Shown one piece after another: positions 6,732 through 60,890 of a DNA stretch of 64,000 nt (positions are counted from its first letter, which is position 1; each line of letters begins with the position of its first letter). The position numbers and the translations under genes are program-made. The notes beneath the pieces are model-generated. The model was not told where the DNA came from and searched no databases. It saw only the letters and a program-made list of their open reading frames with translations. Source of the DNA: Bacteroidota bacterium (lineage in GTDB: Bacteria > Bacteroidota > Bacteroidia > Chitinophagales > Chitinophagaceae); NCBI GenBank assembly GCA_947476825.1, contig CANJRV010000002.1, positions 1 through 64,000 on the forward strand, written 5' to 3'.

Positions 6732-6813
6732 TATTGCGGCAACGATTGTAGCGAAAATCCTTTTTGTTGGCTCTGCAACAAAAAGATTGCAGCGAAAAGC
6801 GTGCGTGCCGCCC
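6732..6813 (+). repeat. A-family intergenic structured repeat, copy 1
   Basis: TATTGCGGCAACGATTGTAGCGAAAATCCTTTTTGTTGGCTCTGCAACAAAAAGATTGCAGCGAAAAGCGTGCGTGCCGCCC. Confidence 0.9.
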
Positions 6814-14197: not shown

Positions 14198-14280
14198 GGG
14201 GCGGCATACACGCTGTCCTTCCAATCTTTTTGTTGCAGAGCCAACAAAAAGGATTTCCACTCCATCGTTGCCGCAATACA
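14198..14280 (-). repeat. A-family intergenic structured repeat, copy 2
   Basis: GGGGCGGCATACACGCTGTCCTTCCAATCTTTTTGTTGCAGAGCCAACAAAAAGGATTTCCACTCCATCGTTGCCGCAATAC. Confidence 0.88.
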
Positions 14281-14438: not shown

Positions 14439-15558
<1,120 letters not shown>

Positions 15559-15579
15559 GATTGAGTAGTAGAAAGCCCC

Positions 15580-15704: not shown

Positions 15705-15749
15705 AAAGCAACAGAATGAAACTACGAAACGAAAGACATTTTGTAGAAC
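15705..15749 (-). repeat. B-family (REP-like) palindrome, copy 1, partial
   Basis: aagcaacagaatgaaactacgaaacgaaagacattttgtagaac. Confidence 0.8.
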
Positions 15750-15911
15750 AATAAAAAAACCATTTTTTTATATAAAAACTACCTGTAAGTGAATTGAAAA
15801 TCCACCGATAGCGGTTCGACATTGCAAATGTCAAATATTTATATGAAGCACATCACGAATATATGGGGCCGACTATAAATGTGATTACACAATTTAATTT
15901 ATAGTCTAAAA

Positions 15912-23728: not shown

Positions 23729-23811
23729 GGGCGGCTCTCACGCTTTTCGCTACAATCTTTTTGTTGCAGAGCCAACAAAAAGGATTTTCGCTACAATCGT
23801 TGCCGCAATGC
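23729..23811 (-). repeat. A-family intergenic structured repeat, copy 4
   Basis: GGGCGGCTCTCACGCTTTTCGCTACAATCTTTTTGTTGCAGAGCCAACAAAAAGGATTTTCGCTACAATCGTTGCCGCAATGC. Confidence 0.92.
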
Positions 23812-23857
23812 ACGAATCATGAAGAATATTTTGTGCTCCACAATTTTAGTTAAGCGG

Positions 23858-23910
23858 TTCTACGAAGCGTCCTCGCTTTGTAGTGGTATTCTTTTTCTTT
23901 CAGCAAACTT
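23858..23910 (+). repeat. B-family (REP-like) palindrome, copy 2, on the 3' side of the RAYT gene
   Basis: TTCTACGAAGCGTCCTCGCTTTGTAG...CTTTCAGCAA. Confidence 0.75.
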
Positions 23911-23913
23911 ATC

Positions 23914-24474
23914 CTAAGTCAATAACAAATCTATCTCAAATATACTTTTTCGATTCGCATAATTTGTTGCACTACTATACATGTAATCAATTTCCTTATA
24001 AACAATTCCTGCTCTAACTGGGTTTTGATGTATGTATAGCAACTTCTGGTAAAAAAAATCTTGTGAAAATATTTCTTCAGGATGATTGTTATTTGTCCAT
24101 ATCTTAAATTTCTTATTTGCTAAGGTTTGCTTACTATAAAAATTGAACATGTGTAGAAGCCACTCCCGCCTGCTTTCGGGTGTTTCATTAATAATCTTTA
24201 TGAATGATTTGCTAGTAAAGGTTTTAAAATCTCTTATAACATCACTTAGATTATTGTCTTTCGCTGTCCAAATTGTGTGCACATGGTTTGTCATTATTAC
24301 AAATGCATGAACCTCAAGGTTTTTATTTTTCTTACAATAGGTAAAACTCTCAAGAAGTAAATCCTTATATATTTGCCTGCTTAATAAATCAATCCAACCT
24401 ACAATAGTAAAAGTTAAATAATGTGGTGCTCCCTGATTTCTAATATGATACCCTTCGCTAAACTCATAACTCAT
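23914..24474 (-). CDS. REP-associated tyrosine transposase-like protein (Y1_Tnp/RAYT)
   Basis: GAPHYLTFTIVG, HAFVIMTNHVHTIW (HxH), YIHQNPVRAGIV...YSSATNYA; flanked by inverted B-family palindromes. Confidence 0.88.
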   Translation of the reverse strand: MSYEFSEGYHIRNQGAPHYLTFTIVGWIDLLSRQIYKDLLLESFTYCKKNKNLEVHAFVIMTNHVHTIWTAKDNNLSDVIRDFKTFTSKSFIKIINETPESRREWLLHMFNFYSKQTLANKKFKIWTNNNHPEEIFSQDFFYQKLLYIHQNPVRAGIVYKEIDYMYSSATNYANRKSIFEIDLLLT

Positions 24475-24500
24475 AATGCGAATTTAAATTTTTTAATTAT

Positions 24501-24564
24501 CATTCCGAAAAAGTTGCTGAAAGCAACAGAATAAAACTACGAAACGAAAGACGTTTCGTAGAAC
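24501..24564 (-). repeat. B-family (REP-like) palindrome, copy 3, on the 5' side of the RAYT gene
   Basis: Reverse complement of TTCTACGAAACGTCTTTCGTTTCGTAGTTTTATTCTGTTGCTTTCAGCAAC. Confidence 0.92.
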
Positions 24565-24573
24565 AATAATTTA

Positions 24574-27500
24574 TTATTTTACTTTACATGCCTCTGGGAA
24601 CTGGGTACCCACACTATTGCTATTTTGGTACTTCATAAATTCTAAACTTCTTCTGTTATTTTTAAATATAGAATTATACGCCATGATAATGCCACCGCCC
24701 AAAGTTCCAACATTATAATTGGCAATACCATTTTCAGAATTCTCAATGATTGCACCATTTTTTATTTCGCAATAACCTTGCGTATAATACCCACCACTTG
24801 TTGATATTTGTCTAAGGCTAGGGTCTGCCTCTACATAAATACCAGTCCACATAGCATCGCAACTATTGGTAAGCGTAGCACCATCTATGATTAATTTTGC
24901 ACCTTTCTCTACTATTATTTTTCCATATTTGGGTAAATGAATAGTTGTAGGATTGTTTGTAGTTCCTGAAATAGTAAGCGTATGACCAGCTAATACTTTT
25001 ATTGAACCTTCAATATATTTATCTCCAGTCCATGTCGTGTTTGCATTAATATTATCCGTAACGCCAGGATTATTATTGGGGATATATAAGTCACTTTGCC
25101 AAATGCCACGACCATAAGTGGCGGCTAAAAGCTTGCCATCGCAATAACTTATGCTCAGTTTGGAAACCATACAATTAGGCATGTGGTTATTCATTTTTCG
25201 CCAGCACTGGGTTGGTTTCCACCAATAATAAACACCATCATCACAGCCCGCGTATATTAAATCATCACTACCATTTTGATAAAGTAAACAATTCACTGGT
25301 AGTTCCGTAAGACCTGTACTCATATTGCTCCATGTAACCCCTGCGTCCTCACTTACCAATACTCTTTTTAAATCAGGTGCATTAGGATTCACTATGTAAC
25401 CTAATGATAAAAATATTCTGTCTGCATTTAATGGGTCTACTGCAAAATCGGTTCCGATAACCCCATTATCTAAATCACTTACTACAGAGGGAGTAATATC
25501 ACTAGTTCCATTTTGATTCCAATTCCAAACCGAACCATTCTTTTTTCCTTTTGTTAAAATAAAATTTGTTTTACTTCCGTTTAGTAAATTATATGCTACA
25601 GTTGCATTACTGGGTGCTACCATAAATTGTATATTATCAGTTTCACTAATTCTGGTTTGTAAATCTTGAGGTGTAGACGAAGATTGAAAATAATTTGTCC
25701 ATCCGGTAGTGCTTCCGCCACCATAGCCGTCAGATGTAATGCTGGATTCAGACTCCCATGCATTTTTAATTCCCAAATCCATTCTGTCTGCTCTAAAGTG
25801 TATTGGAACAGGAGTATACCTTCCATTTTCAGGTTGATGAGTAAGACCAGAAATTGATGCGGGTGTTATAGCAAAAGGATTATGATAGAAATTCATAGGA
25901 AAACTATTTACTCCATTCCAAGAGTTAGAGTTTTTATATAGAATTCTATAGTCATTGTTTGTTGAAAACCTATCATCAAAGCTCGCTGTCAATCCATCTC
26001 CCAAACTAGCTCCTCCCCACAAATTGGTAGCTTTATTCAATACTTGAAATCCATCATGATAAGAAGCAGTTGCAATAGATCTACCTTTTATTTCTTTATC
26101 CACATCATAGGCATCGCTTATATATAATCCTTCTCCATTCAAATTAGATCTTTGACACACATTTTGTTGATTATTATTGTTATCATGCGTCTGAATATTT
26201 TGTATATTATGAGCAAATGTTTTACTGATTCCGCCATCATTTCCCCAGAAAACAATATCATCCATCCCTGGATACGACGCGTTGATATTGCTTTTATACA
26301 AGTATACTTTCCTAATATCAGCATGTATAGGATAATTAATTGTTGAACTTGAATAATCACTAATACTTTTCCAATGCCATGCATTATTGTATCGATAAAT
26401 AATGTTGGCTTGAGTTCTACCCAAGTACATCACGTTAGTATTGTAACTACTTACCGATAGGTTAGTAGCACATTGATCATTAAATGTATTAATTATATTG
26501 TTTACTAATGTAGTACAAACTGTGGGTGTATTCATATCCCATTCGATAATAACATTTTCAAAAGTACCTGAATTTAAAACATACCAATTACCTTGGTTTA
26601 CTATGGGTACAATAGCTATATAGAATTTTCCGTTGCCAACATACTCAATAGAATAATATTGATTGACTGTACTTCCAGTTAATTGACCATTTAATTGCGT
26701 AATTATCCCACTCATGTCATTACAATCTTTATTGATAATTTCAGTTGGGCTACCAGCAACTATAGTTCCATTAGTCAAATCAAATTGAAACTTCCAAACA
26801 CCAGTAGTATACGACACTGGATCCGAATCCCAATTACTCGCCACAAAAAAAGTTCCAGACATGATGTCATTTGCATTTGCAAATTCTATATCACTTAAAT
26901 TTGTAATGTCGCCAAATTGAGAACTTGCTAATGATTTAAGACCGCTCGTTAAAGGAGTCCATGTACCTGTTGAACCCAATTTCGCAAATATTTGATCTTT
27001 ACTGGATAATACAACATACGGTAGTGAATTGACTAAATATGGACAAAAAACTATTTTATTTACCAGTATAAAATCTGGATCGGGCAAAGTCATTTCTTTT
27101 ACCCAAGTGATTCCACCATCCATTGTATGAAATACCCCTAATCCATATTTCTTCCCGAAAAAATGCTCTCCAGCAGAAGTTGAAATATAAATTTCATCAG
27201 TGTTTAACGGATTTACTGCCATACTTTGAATAGCCATAGTACCTAACATAGTTGCGTTGTCCGTTAAATTAATCCACTTAAATCCAGTACCATTTGGCAC
27301 TTGCCGCCATAAGCCACCATTTTCACTTGCCGCCAAAATATTATTTTCATTTAATGGGTCTACCCAAATATCCCTCACTACACCTATGTTTTGATAAGTT
27401 GGCATGTCAGTCTTGGGTCCAATATTTTCCCAATCACCCCTATATGCTTCCAAATTGCATACATCAGATTCTTCTTCTTGGTTTGCATCACTTTTTAATC

Positions 27501-39367: not shown

Positions 39368-39450
39368 ATATTGCGGCAACGATAGTAGTGGAAATCCTTT
39401 TTGCTCGCTTTGGAGCAAAAAGATTGTAACGGATAGCGTGCGTGCCGCCC
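39368..39450 (+). repeat. A-family intergenic structured repeat, copy 5
   Basis: TATTGCGGCAACGATAGTAGTGGAAATCCTTTTTGCTCGCTTTGGAGCAAAAAGATTGTAACGGATAGCGTGCGTGCCGCCC. Confidence 0.9.
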
Positions 39451-50028: not shown

Positions 50029-50112
50029 GGGCGGCACTCACGCTTTCCATTACAATCTTTTTGCTGCAGAGCCAGCAAAAAGGATTTCCATTACAATCGT
50101 TGCCGCAATGCA
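50029..50112 (-). repeat. A-family intergenic structured repeat, copy 6
   Basis: GGGCGGCACTCACGCTTTCCATTACAATCTTTTTGCTGCAGAGCCAGCAAAAAGGATTTCCATTACAATCGTTGCCGCAATGC. Confidence 0.92.
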
Positions 50113-52498: not shown

Positions 52499-55195
52499 AT
52501 GAAAAAAAATCTATTCCTTCTTTGCACCTTGGTATGTATGCTTATCAGCACTTTTGTATTTGCACAAGTTCCACAAAAATTTAATTACCAAGGTATTGCA
52601 CGCGATGCGAAGGGTACTCCCCTAGTAAAGCAAAAAATGACTTTGAAATTATCTGTTTTAGCCACATCCGATGCAACATTTGCAGAATACGAAGAAATAC
52701 AAATGGTAACTACCAATGAGTTTGGATTATATACTTTGCAAATTGGCAACGGCACACCAGTATCTGGTGAAATGAAATCCGTAAAATGGGAGACTGGCAA
52801 TAAATATATTAAAGTGGCTATCGATCCAAATGGCGCTAACAATTTTGTAGAGGCTGGTACTTCCCAATTACTTTCTGTTCCGTATGCATTATATGCAGAT
52901 AAAGCTGGATCATCCACGAATGCAACGCATGGTGAAACACGCACTGGTGCAGTAAGTTCGAATGCAGCACATGTTGGAGGGGATGCAAATTATATTACGA
53001 AATTTACGGCATTAAATACGATTGGCAAATCAATACTTTACGACAATGGAAGTGCTATTGGTATAGGAACAACAAGTCCAGTTGCAGGTACTAAAATCCA
53101 TATTTATGATACGAATGCTGGGATTACAGAAATGAGAATTCAACATACGAAACCAACTCTTGGCGGTGCTTCACGCCTTTCTTTTTTCAATGACGCAAAC
53201 ACAGCCTTCACAGCTACTGCTAATTATGCGGTGATGAATAAACAAGCAACTAATAATACGGGTATAGTAGGTCCAGGTTTTGCCAATTCAAAATTATTCG
53301 GATTTAACAATAGCCAAGGTAGTCTACTTTTTTCAACGGGTGGTAATATTGGATTTGGTTATTATAATCAATCGAATTCTACAGTTACTACAAGATTATT
53401 TATTGATAGTACTTCAGGTAATGTGGGACTTGGTAATACAAGCCCAGGTGCAAAGCTAGAGGTAACAGGACAAGTTAAAATTACTGGTGGCACGCCAGGA
53501 GCTGGAAAGGTATTAACTAGTGATGCGACAGGATTAGCTTCTTGGACTGCATTAGCAAGTGGACCTACTGGTCCTGCTGGCGCAACGGGTGCAACAGGTG
53601 CGCAAGGGCCTATTGGATTAACAGGTCCTGCGGGTGCTGCAGGTGCTACTGGACCTCAAGGCGTTCAAGGTGCTGCAGGAGCTAATGGTGCACAAGGAAT
53701 ACAAGGCCCAGCTGGAGCAAATGGAGCACAAGGAGTTCAAGGCCCTGCGGGTGCTAATGGTGCTCAAGGATTACAAGGTCCAGCTGGAACACCTGGTGTG
53801 CCTGGTTCTAATGGAGCCGCAGGTGCTACAGGGGCAACAGGCCCTACAGGTGCTGCTGGAACTTCTGCTTACACTGCTGGAGCTGGTATTAGTATTGCTG
53901 GTTCTGTTATCTCTGCAACTGGCGGCGGTGGCGGAGTTAGCGGTAGTGGTACTACAAACTATCTAAGTAAATTCACAAGTGCAAGCGCAATTGGTAATAG
54001 CAGTATACAAGACAATGGAACTAACCTTGGTATTGGTGGTGCACCGAATGCCATAGAAAAATTAAACATCCCAATGTCTACTGGCACTGGTGCATTAAGC
54101 ATTGACAAAACAAATACAACTGCTGGCTCTTACGCAACTCGCTTTACGCAAACAGGCACTAATGGACAAAAAGTGTATATGAATTACAATGGTACGTTTA
54201 CAGCAGGGGCCTTCTCTGCACCAAGTCCAGCTATTGCTGTTTATACTACAGGAGCAAATCTTGGTATTTATTCCATTACATCTGGAAATGGTGCTGGAAC
54301 TGCAATGAATGGCGAAAGCACTATATGGACAGGAGGTCGTTTTCGTACAAAAGATTCAACGAATCTAGGTGCTTCTGGGCTTGTTGGTATTACTGAATCG
54401 AAAAGGAATAATGTAGGCGCCATCATAGGACTTAATACCGCTACAAATACAGACTCAACCCATGTTGGCGTGTATGGAACCTACAATGAAACCGCATATG
54501 GCGTTGGTGTCATGGGTCTTGGTGCTGGTGCATCAACTTTAACTTCTACTACAAATGATATAGGTGTTTACGGTAGTGCAGATACTTATGGAATGTTTGG
54601 GTTAAGTGATGCTGGCGTAGGCGTATATGGATATGTGAATAATACTACAACTGGTTATGGTGTGGTTTCAGATGGTAATTTCTATGCATTTGGTGATACT
54701 TACGCAACCGGTACTAAATCGGCAGTGGTACCAACTAGCCAAGGAAATAAATTAGTATATTGTAGTGAAAGCCCTGAAATTTGGTTTGAAGATTTTGGCA
54801 ATGGTACATTAGCACAAGGAGAAACAGACATTCAACTTGATCCATTATTTTTAGAAATGGTAAAAATAAATGAAGACCATCCAATGGTTGTAACCGTTAC
54901 ACCACTTGGCAATTGCAATGGTTTATATGTAGAGCCTGGTACAACTGGATTCAAAGTTAAAGAATTAAATAACGGAACCAGCAATGTGAAATTTAGTTAT
55001 AGAATAAGTGCAAAAAGAATCAATTTCGAAGACAAACGCTTCGGTGAAGATCCAATGATAGCTTTTAATAAAGCCAAAGAATTGAACGCAAAAAAAACTG
55101 GCGACCAAGCTCAAACTTTACCTGCAAACTCCAATAAAACACCCGTGAATTTTAAAGCGCTTGCTACACAAGCAGCAGCTAGTAGTAAGGAGTAG
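52499..55195 (+). CDS. Secreted protein with collagen-like Gly-X-Y segment
   Basis: Signal peptide, QVPQKFNYQGIARDAKGTPL N-domain; GPTGPAGATGATGAQGPIGLTGPAGAAG...GPTGAAG triple repeats; conserved C-terminal domain. Confidence 0.88.
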   Translation: MKKNLFLLCTLVCMLISTFVFAQVPQKFNYQGIARDAKGTPLVKQKMTLKLSVLATSDATFAEYEEIQMVTTNEFGLYTLQIGNGTPVSGEMKSVKWETGNKYIKVAIDPNGANNFVEAGTSQLLSVPYALYADKAGSSTNATHGETRTGAVSSNAAHVGGDANYITKFTALNTIGKSILYDNGSAIGIGTTSPVAGTKIHIYDTNAGITEMRIQHTKPTLGGASRLSFFNDANTAFTATANYAVMNKQATNNTGIVGPGFANSKLFGFNNSQGSLLFSTGGNIGFGYYNQSNSTVTTRLFIDSTSGNVGLGNTSPGAKLEVTGQVKITGGTPGAGKVLTSDATGLASWTALASGPTGPAGATGATGAQGPIGLTGPAGAAGATGPQGVQGAAGANGAQGIQGPAGANGAQGVQGPAGANGAQGLQGPAGTPGVPGSNGAAGATGATGPTGAAGTSAYTAGAGISIAGSVISATGGGGGVSGSGTTNYLSKFTSASAIGNSSIQDNGTNLGIGGAPNAIEKLNIPMSTGTGALSIDKTNTTAGSYATRFTQTGTNGQKVYMNYNGTFTAGAFSAPSPAIAVYTTGANLGIYSITSGNGAGTAMNGESTIWTGGRFRTKDSTNLGASGLVGITESKRNNVGAIIGLNTATNTDSTHVGVYGTYNETAYGVGVMGLGAGASTLTSTTNDIGVYGSADTYGMFGLSDAGVGVYGYVNNTTTGYGVVSDGNFYAFGDTYATGTKSAVVPTSQGNKLVYCSESPEIWFEDFGNGTLAQGETDIQLDPLFLEMVKINEDHPMVVTVTPLGNCNGLYVEPGTTGFKVKELNNGTSNVKFSYRISAKRINFEDKRFGEDPMIAFNKAKELNAKKTGDQAQTLPANSNKTPVNFKALATQAAASSKE

Positions 55196-55200
55196 TGAGT

Positions 55201-55281
55201 AATGAGTAGTGAGTAATGAGTATTTAGTAGTTAGTAGAAAGTACCTTCATGGAGATACTTTTTACTTTCTACTTTCTACTT
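55201..55281. repeat. GAGTAATGAGTAGT / AGTAGAAAGTA microrepeats with an inverted second half
   Basis: agtaatgagtagtgagtaatgagtatttagtagttagtagaaagtacc...tactttttactttctactttctactt. Confidence 0.85.
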
Positions 55282-58640: not shown

Positions 58641-58707
58641 AATTAATTTTAATGCTCACAAAGTTAATTTTTTTTAGGAGACGAGGAAAACAATGATGAA
58701 TTATATT

Positions 58708-59200
58708 GTCTGAACTATGATATTGCGGCTGTGCTCAATACAAGTTTTATTGAATAGTTGGAATGCTATGATTCTTTGCTAGTTAAAGTCTTCATATTCT
58801 ACGAAACGTCTTTCGTCTCGGAGTTTTATTCTGTTGCTTTCAGTAAGCTTTTCTAAATGAATATATTGTCAGAACTATGATTTTTTTGATTAGTAGGATT
58901 ACTATGATTCTTTGCCTGTTTAAATCTTCGCCTATTATGTTCTACGAAACGTCTTTCATTTCGCAGTTTTATTCTGTTGCTTTCAGCAACCTTTTCGACA
59001 TGCTCATATTGTCTGAACTATGATTTTTTTGATTAGTAGGATTACTATGATTCTTTGCTTGATTAAGTCTTCATCTATCATGTTCTACGAAACGTCTTTC
59101 GTTTCGTAGTTTTATTCTGTTGCTTTTAGCAACCTTTTCGAAATGATTATATTGTCTGAACTATACTTCGGCTGCACTCAGTTCAGGTTTTTTTGTAATG
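58708..59200 (+). repeat. Composite tandem array, 143-bp period: phased GATT module plus B-family palindrome
   Basis: TTCTACGAAACG palindromes begin at 58797, 58940 and 59083; each is preceded by TTGTCTGAACTATGAT..CTATGATTCTTTGC, with a last partial module at ~59152. Confidence 0.93.
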
Positions 59201-59409: not shown

Positions 59410-59604
59410 ATGAATACAGCAGAACTTAAACTGAATATAATTCGTCAAGTAGACACACTAAACGAAGATGTTTTGAAAGAAGTAACTGACTATATACAAA
59501 GTAAGATTAATAGTCAAAATGCTTCAGTATTTGAATCATGTTCTTCGAAACGTCTTTCGTTTCGAAGTTTTATTCTGTTGCTTTCAGCAACCTTTTCGAA
59601 ATGA
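59410..59604 (+). pseudogene. Antitoxin-like ORF with C-terminus replaced by a B-family repeat
   Basis: MNTAELKLNIIRQVDTLNEDVLKEVTDYIQSKINSQN resembles Bacteroidota antitoxin N-termini; residues from ~SSKRLSFRSF are encoded by the palindrome. Confidence 0.65.
59541..59603 (+). repeat. B-family (REP-like) palindrome, copy 7, inside ORF 59410..59604
   Basis: TTCTTCGAAACGTCTTTCGTTTCGAAGTTTTATTCTGTTGCTTTCAGCAACCTTTTCGAAATG. Confidence 0.93.
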
Positions 59605-59677: not shown

Positions 59678-59941
59678 CTAGTCGTAATGTCCTTTACAAC
59701 TTATTATTTCAATATCAGCATTTACAGCAATTCTATATATTAACCTGTGTTCATCTGTAATGCGCCTGCTCCAACACCCTTTTAAATTATGTTTCAAAGG
59801 TTCGGGCTTGCCTTTGCCTTCAAAGGGTGTTCTGCTTATATCTTTCAACAATTCTGCAATACGTTTAAATGTATTTTTATTTACAATAGCCCAATTCGTA
59901 AAATCTTCAAAAGCATCTCTATGAAATATGATTTTTTTCAT
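59678..59941 (-). CDS. yoeB: Txe/YoeB family addiction module toxin
   Basis: MKKIIFHRDAFEDFTNWA...GKGKPEPLKHNLKGCWSRRITDEHRLIYRI...CKGHYD. Confidence 0.92.
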   Translation of the reverse strand: MKKIIFHRDAFEDFTNWAIVNKNTFKRIAELLKDISRTPFEGKGKPEPLKHNLKGCWSRRITDEHRLIYRIAVNADIEIISCKGHYD

Positions 59942-59948
59942 TGCTTTA

Positions 59949-60203
59949 TTATAGTTTTTCAAAAATAATTTCATCTAACTGAGCTTCGGTAAATGATATT
60001 ATGTTTGTTTTATTATTCATATCTTCTAAGCATTTTTCTAATCGTGCAAGACTAGCCTGTGGCGTTTCCGTTTGTAGCAAATTAAAATCTTCTGGTGTTG
60101 ATACAGATATTTGTAATTGGCTTCGGTGTTTAAATAATTTTTTTAGTGATGCCAAAAAATTACTATTTAATTCATCAGGTGTGACAATGAAAGTTGTTTC
60201 CAT
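59949..60203 (-). CDS. Antitoxin partner of YoeB
   Basis: 84-aa ORF immediately upstream and cotranscribed with yoeB; assigned mainly by position. Confidence 0.7.
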   Translation of the reverse strand: METTFIVTPDELNSNFLASLKKLFKHRSQLQISVSTPEDFNLLQTETPQASLARLEKCLEDMNNKTNIISFTEAQLDEIIFEKL

Positions 60204-60404
60204 ATTAAATGTATTTGAATGCGAATATAGTTATTGATTGTTTTCCTGCAGTCTTCTTCACCATTAATATTTATTAGCAAGCCTCTGTTTTGCTGACTTG
60301 GCAACCATCCAAAATACCCCAAAAATGTTCCTACAAATTTATTTGATTGTTCAAAACAAATAATTGAAACAGTTCGAGATATGCAATCTCGGATTTCTAT
60401 CTTG

Positions 60405-60467
60405 TTCTACGAAACTTTTTTAGTTTCGTAGTTTCATTCTTTTGATTTCAGCAATCTTTACGAAATG
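60405..60467 (+). repeat. B-family (REP-like) palindrome, copy 8
   Basis: TTCTACGAAACTTTTTTAGTTTCGTAGTTTCATTCTTTTGATTTCAGCAA. Confidence 0.85.
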
Positions 60468-60569
60468 CTTTTATTGTCTGAACTATGATATTTCGGCTGT
60501 GCTCAATACAAGTTATTGATTAGTAGGCTTACTATGATTCTTTGCTTGATTAAGTCTTCGTCTATCATG

Positions 60570-60632
60570 TTCTACGAAACGTCTTTCGTTTCGTAGTTTT
60601 ATTCTGTTGCTTTCAGCAAGCTTTTCGCAATG
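60570..60632 (+). repeat. B-family (REP-like) palindrome, copy 9
   Basis: TTCTACGAAACGTCTTTCGTTTCGTAGTTTTATTCTGTTGCTTTCAGCAAGCTTTTCGCAATG. Confidence 0.93.
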
Positions 60633-60808: not shown

Positions 60809-60890
60809 TATTGCGGCAACGATTGTAGCGAAAATCCTTTTTGCTGGCTCTGCAGCAAAAAGATTGTAGCGAAAAGCGTGTGCGCCGCCC
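60809..60890 (+). repeat. A-family intergenic structured repeat, copy 7
   Basis: TATTGCGGCAACGATTGTAGCGAAAATCCTTTTTGCTGGCTCTGCAGCAAAAAGATTGTAGCGAAAAGCGTGTGCGCCGCCC. Confidence 0.92.

Follow-up and report, generated by a model that had tools for sequence, protein, structure and literature searches.

A REP/RAYT system with a two-hairpin repeat unit in a Bacteroidota genome

Introduction

Gammaproteobacterial REP-associated tyrosine transposase (RAYT) genes always lie between two inverted REP sequences (PMC2817692; PMC3116915), and the biochemistry of REP/RAYT systems, in the part of the literature covered here, rests on three proteobacterial proteins. REP/RAYT systems of Bacteroidota are already in the literature: the main text of PMC6006769 describes subclass 2.6 RAYTs in Bacteroidetes, with flanks that it calls 'atypical'. 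In the available portion of PMC3733652, Bacteroidetes figure only for CGTC repeats, said to be without a dedicated transposase. As far as these sources go, the Bacteroidota branch is known only for its 'atypical' flanks, with nothing testable on the target that is recognised.

The locus considered here lies in a window of 64,000 nucleotides from the 3.3-Mb genome of a member of the Chitinophagaceae. An earlier note had read it as a REP/RAYT system; the RAYT, its flanks and the dispersed repeats bear this out, but the system is of the subclass 2.6 two-hairpin type and not of the canonical, proteobacterial GTAG kind.

The RAYT gene and its flanking units

The gene and the repeat units on either side of it are as follows.

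23914..24474, minus strand: RAYT (TnpAREP) gene, 186 aa, with HUH residues H64-V-H66, W126 and predicted catalytic Y147
24513..24564, minus strand: upstream unit (5' of the RAYT gene), two hairpins; from BLAST with the unit and folding
23857..23908, plus strand: downstream unit (3' of the RAYT gene), inverted, of a divergent subfamily; first hairpin (H1) intact, second (H2) degenerate

The open reading frame is intact and carries the motifs NHVH and YIHQNPVRAG..YSSA that had marked it as a Y1/RAYT protein, an assignment strengthened by scores above cut-off for the REP-associated tyrosine transposase model (NCBIfam NF047646; 97.6 bits, cut-off 80) and Pfam Y1_Tnp (27.3 bits, cut-off 23). With a profile from 15 relatives, the top solved structure is E. 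coli TnpAREP (4er8; E 2.9e-7), and the predicted structure of the window protein is a confident model (pLDDT 82.8, pTM 0.81). H64, H66, W126 and Y147 are invariant across these 15 relatives.

The flanking units are inverted with respect to each other, with the long palindrome on the outer side of each, as had been claimed. The full upstream unit (minus strand, 24564-24513), GTTCTACGAAACGTCTTTCGTTTCGTAGTTTTATTCTGTTGCTTTCAGCAAC, consists of a GTT foot, H1 (CTACGAAACG-TCTTT-CGTTTCGTAG), a linker (TTTTATTCT) and H2 (GTTGCT-TTC-AGCAAC); as single-stranded DNA it folds into both hairpins at -15.6 kcal/mol, against a shuffle mean of -3.9 (z -7.6). In the downstream unit H1 (CTACGAAGCG-TCCT-CGCTTTGTAG) is kept and H2 has lost its pairing, so the two hairpins that the earlier note gave the repeat stand for the upstream unit but not for the left flank. 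The subfamily of this unit at the 3' end of the gene is also found beside the second RAYT gene associated with this repeat family, called B (contig C93), and on contig C74. No GT[AG]G foot lies 0-2 nt 5' of the hairpin; the foot is GTT (GYT in relatives), and within the B unit family GTAG is present only at the 3' end of the H1 stem.

Dispersed copies of the unit and other repeats

Seven further copies lie in the window.

15705..15750, minus strand: partial copy (palindrome match, BLAST)
58797..58859, plus strand: first copy of a direct 143-bp array (palindrome match, BLAST)
58938..58997, plus strand: second copy of the array (palindrome match, BLAST)
59081..59145, plus strand: third copy of the array (BLAST); the surrounding block, 58696-59179, is missing in the sister species
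59539..59603, plus strand: copy coding for the C-terminus of the truncated ORF 59410-59604 (BLAST, comparison with the sister species)
60403..60467, plus strand: diverged copy (palindrome match, BLAST)
60568..60632, plus strand: copy (palindrome match, BLAST)

The palindrome has eight matches in the window with at most three mismatches (15722, 24537, 58799, 58942, 59085, 59543, 60407 and 60572), where shuffled sequence is expected to yield 0.00, and each of the recurrences listed in the earlier note coincides with a copy. The genome-wide count against a control that it proposed gave 27 sites for the same pattern, against 1 for the reversed control, and about 32 places by BLAST with the 65-nt unit (E<=1.5e-5), a figure that is approximate, several copies lying at contig ends. 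Many dispersed copies are 94-97% identical to the unit. When 15 of them are aligned on the foot, pairwise identity is 0.89-0.97 from -1 to +48; outside this stretch it is 0.66, then ~0.5-0.6 to +78 on one side and 0.5-0.4 to -21 on the other, with background beyond. The conserved dispersed unit is thus ~54 nt by this profile, not 63 nt as first proposed. Dispersed copies are mainly single or in direct head-to-tail arrays, and the dispersed inverted pairs that characterise REPINs were not found among them. An extension, CCAGTTCCTCGAGGCATGTAAAATAA, lies upstream of many copies. Considered as a potential target in its own right, it has eight matches genome-wide, most adjoining a unit, and may belong to a subfamily of the unit.

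Several other arrangements were observed around these copies. Between the units of the 143-bp array stands another repeat motif, GTCTGAACTATGATTTTTTTGATTAGTAGGATTACTATGATTCTTTGC, in alternation with them (58745-59170, and again at 60470-60565), giving a mosaic of two repeat families. On contig C8 of the host (locus L029, ~280-345), the opening ~9 codons of a B-type RAYT lie between two units in direct orientation; this is the remnant of a deleted REPtron. Dispersed units at loci L030 and L050 and at 59.6 kb of the window adjoin apparent RelE/YoeB-type toxin-antitoxin genes, among which the window YoeB is the one checked by profile.

The window also holds repeats of other kinds. The Rfam 'RNA' Flavo-1 (RF01705) has six copies, on both strands, one of them directly beside a RAYT unit.

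6734-6810, 14202-14276, 23732-23808, 39371-39447, 50032-50108 and 60811-60887, both strands: Flavo-1 copies (Rfam)

They correspond to an 'A' repeat that was considered as a part of the REPtron and rejected: it is Flavo-1, and among 18 RAYT loci it occurs only at the sister orthologue and at C77. Flavo-1 matches have been reported in sense and antisense of transcripts (PMC9723704); Flavo-1 behaves like a DNA repeat scattered through the genome, and looking at it again in that light may be worthwhile. Tandem 14-bp arrays, of AGTAGAAAGTAAAA and AGTAGTGAGTAATG types, lie at 15470-15578 and 55177-55257.

Unit architecture in relatives

A search with a profile built from ten close relatives yielded 80 RAYT loci, all with Bacteroidota names. 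Inverted flanking units are present in 69 of the 76 loci with enough flank to be tested, against 15 of 451 controls in which flanks of different loci were paired. For a set of 54 loci, the proximal flanks form inverted repeats in 48 and the distal flanks in none (0/54); loci with inverted flanks were chosen without any hairpin criterion. Direct-orientation matches between flanks (26/54 loci) are expected because H1 is itself palindromic, and the polarity of the unit rests on the loop T, the order of H1 and H2, and the linker.

At least two hairpins form in 69.6% of 138 flanking units and in 0.9% of dinucleotide shuffles. The two-hairpin units (n=96) have a median gap of 9 nt (quartiles 8 and 10) and median stems of 10 and 7; T opens the H1 loop in 93 and the H2 loop in 92 of the 96. 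The GYT foot occupies -13 to -11 from the H1 loop (G 0.80, C/T 0.95, T 0.96), positions -4/-3 are A/G, and H2 has no foot. We read GYT as a putative functional counterpart of the GTAG guide. The two-hairpin rule holds in most relatives checked and makes the DNA target testable. A group of mostly Bacteroidales units (L172-L174, L179, L180, L182, L188, L208, L211 and L214) keeps a G-T mispair (GGC..GTC) in H1 near the foot, reminiscent of the bulge required in E. coli REP.

Covariation was assessed in 26 units, taken from 13 close relatives and aligned by sequence alone. Stem cells pair in 95.9% of cases, against 75.1% in shuffles; changes on both sides occur at 12 of the 16 stem pairs; and doubly changed cells number 95, compared with 28.5 in shuffled and at most 19 in slid alignments. 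One-sided, wobble-type (G-T/U) changes account for only 6 cells. An energy-based consensus recovers the same two-hairpin structure unaided. Because compensatory changes come with few G-T pairs, and G-T is a mismatch in DNA, the pattern appears to fit a constraint on DNA hairpins better than one on RNA.

This bears on the proposal that the units act in RNA, chiefly as terminators or as stabilisers of mRNA at the ends of genes, with their adjacency to the RAYT secondary. H1 followed by TTTTATTC does score as terminator-like in four copies (58.6-60.8 kb), but the T run is missing from many related units, an Rfam search with the unit matched no family, the loop T and GYT foot set a polarity that appears in mirror image on the two sides of the gene, and 95 double compensatory cells against 6 one-sided ones is unlike RNA; the proposal is improbable.

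Co-occurrence of RAYT and repeat

A RAYT is found in 40 of 61 genomes and the B-type repeat in 8. The earlier note had held that a repeat equally abundant in relatives lacking a RAYT would speak against the system, and this is not what is seen: high counts occur only with an identical or 97% alike RAYT (at least 20 copies in the host, G000, and at least 17 in the sister species, G001). There are 4 copies in G003 (RAYT 81%), 1-5 in a few other genomes and none in the remainder of the 61, and many genomes without the B repeat have RAYTs that are 40-60% identical and accompanied by other repeats. In G006, five diverged B copies occur and a RAYT was not detected, so repeats can outlive the gene. 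Over 50 loci, RAYT identity and unit similarity are correlated (Mantel r 0.65; maximum of 2000 permutations 0.16), a correlation for which co-inheritance alone could be enough.

Pairing of gene and repeat is also seen within the host, where NF047646 matches 11 places, five of them near-full-length genes. The B repeat is common to the RAYT genes of the window (contig C2) and C93, and the RAYTs of C77, C58 and C19 each lie between inverted copies of a different palindrome of their own (25, 14 and 38 copies respectively, the last a pattern count with at most three mismatches). Four RAYT lineages thus coexist in the host, and each is paired with a repeat family of its own, a pattern already described for other RAYTs (PMC2817692 and PMC6006769). 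Four lineages and four families in one cell amount to a natural cross-specificity experiment.

Comparison with the sister species

Both B-type RAYTs lie at matching sites in G001 and are 96% identical there, and the differences between the two species concern arrays and blocks. The three-unit array at ~58.70-59.18 kb is missing from G001, which has 28 bp at the site; at 59.54 kb, G001 carries an additional 143-bp unit, and at C74 it has three tandem copies where the host has one. ORF 59410 of the host has been shortened at the 3' end by ~115 bp, a loss that stops exactly at a unit, and this unit codes for the final ~22 residues; the G001 counterpart has 81 aa and a different C-terminus. A further 478 bp (window 24605-25082) is absent in G001; this segment begins near the RAYT's upstream unit and belongs to the 3' portion of an ORF of 1074 aa. 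Deletions abutting units would agree with nicking beside the unit, and replication slippage or recombination could also be their cause. No single-unit insertion with an empty site was found in G001 with flanks from 13 copies, most of which were searched; matching sites were either occupied or differed by blocks or arrays, and no difference was resolved to a single unit. The neighbours of the truncated ORF, 59678-59974 and 59949-60203 (both minus strand), are a YoeB toxin gene (Pfam above cut-off) and its likely partner; the name antitoxin, considered for ORF 59410-59604, lacked Pfam support and was dropped.

Fixed sites for the B-type genes, together with units that outnumber the genes many times, speak against an ordinary IS200/IS605-like insertion sequence that has the two units as its ends and moves as a whole. 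Such an element would have a Y1 transposase with subterminal hairpins, as here; the C19-type gene is seemingly absent at the matching G001 site (right flank 93.6% over 1260 bp; left flank 91 bp, 84%), and in Ilyomonas limi the two end copies are the only ones. However, the ends are inverted here and lie on one strand in IS200/IS605, and the window protein scores 20.5 bits with the IS200/IS605 NCBIfam model, well under its cut-off of 55, which leaves this explanation with very little probability.

The same fixed sites suit another account, in which the RAYT is vertically kept and domesticated for a cellular role, such as the processing of stalled forks at the hairpins, and the repeats, no longer copied by it, remain as relics or as structural sites. 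RAYTs have been termed domesticated transposases (PMC8266576), repeats survive in G006 without a RAYT, and the window gene differs from its G001 orthologue by 8 synonymous and 5 replacement changes, a dN/dS of 0.13 that indicates purifying selection. Array numbers that differ between the sisters at 58.7-59.2 kb, at 59.54 kb and at C74, and the 94-97% identity of many copies, point to recent turnover of units and make the loss of copying doubtful, though a fair minority chance is left to it.

A proposed mechanism

The locus is very probably a REPtron whose subclass 2.6 RAYT acts on its cognate two-hairpin unit. The single-tyrosine HUH nuclease would recognise this unit in single-stranded DNA, the target comprising the GYT foot, a 10-bp H1 with a T-first loop, a linker of ~9 nt, and a 5-7-bp H2 with a T-first loop, in which the foot and the loop Ts are candidate contacts. 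It would nick adjacent to the unit and rejoin strands, and units might in this way be copied, multiplied in direct arrays, or lost along with neighbouring DNA, while the RAYT gene itself stays at its site; the RAYT may thereby mobilise the repeat, and such events may have produced the copy-number differences between the sister species.

Several observations weigh against the REPtron proposal. The array and block differences between sisters are possible products of slippage or recombination; the unit of Ilyomonas limi is present solely as the two RAYT flanks, so dispersal is not universal; repeats persist where a cognate RAYT was not detected (B in G006; the C19-type repeat, with 29 copies, in G001); and simple co-inheritance also predicts correlated divergence of gene and repeat.

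Whether the rule extends to subclass 2.6 RAYTs across Bacteroidota, which would read a bipartite single-stranded target (a pair of T-loop hairpins whose order and spacing are fixed and of which the outer carries a GYT foot), is evenly balanced. If so, two hairpins would be read jointly, a recognition logic distinct from that of other HUH enzymes that read one hairpin with a GTAG guide.

Comparison with known systems

IS200/IS605 elements (IS608, ISDra2) share with the window system Y1 HUH catalysis (predicted here), hairpin ends and a loop T, which is specifically contacted in those elements (PMC8266576); there, however, the whole element moves, and its two ends do not occur as inverted copies scattered over the genome. 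The E. coli REPtron (TnpAREP of group 2, subclass 2.2; 4er8; PMC8266576) shares an HUH Y1 nuclease, inverted adjoining palindromes and dispersed units, but E. coli REP is a single hairpin, bulged and preceded by GTAG as its 5' foot, and often forms inverted pairs (BIMEs), in place of the two hairpins, GYT and direct arrays found here. Inverted REP flanks, a REP family for each RAYT and complementary stem changes are likewise features of gammaproteobacterial RAYT/REP systems (Nunvar, 2010, PMC2817692; Bertels and Rainey, 2011, PMC3116915), in which, unlike the window system, the REP has a GT[AG]G head and a single hairpin, and REPINs are inverted doublets. TIRtrons, with their TIRYTs, also combine RAYT-like genes with inverted repeats that lack GTAG (long ones in that case) and sometimes moderate repeat families; the available portion of PMC3733652 does not state a two-hairpin rule.

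By motifs, spacing and taxon the window protein fits RAYT subclass 2.6 (Bertels group 5), as characterised in the main text of PMC6006769. It has NHVH for NH[LIV]H, YIHQNP for YIH[QN]NP, the downstream SS in YSSA, an HUH-to-Y spacing of 83 where the subclass median is 82, and Bacteroidota relatives; the inserted segment before W, the lack of GT[AG]G and flanking secondary structures that are copied elsewhere are shared too. It departs from the consensus in having T instead of Q after W126 throughout its clade (15 relatives), so that the WQ motif is absent, WQ being a consensus position in the subclass 2.6 table and not strictly defining. The flanks in that main text are atypical, manually found and of weaker structure, compared with a conserved unit here in which two T-loop hairpins follow a GYT foot. 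What is new relative to it is the quantified target architecture, which may be partly recorded in its supplement, and the coexistence of four cognate families; the two-hairpin rule, so quantified, provides a concrete substrate, its polarity and candidate contact bases.
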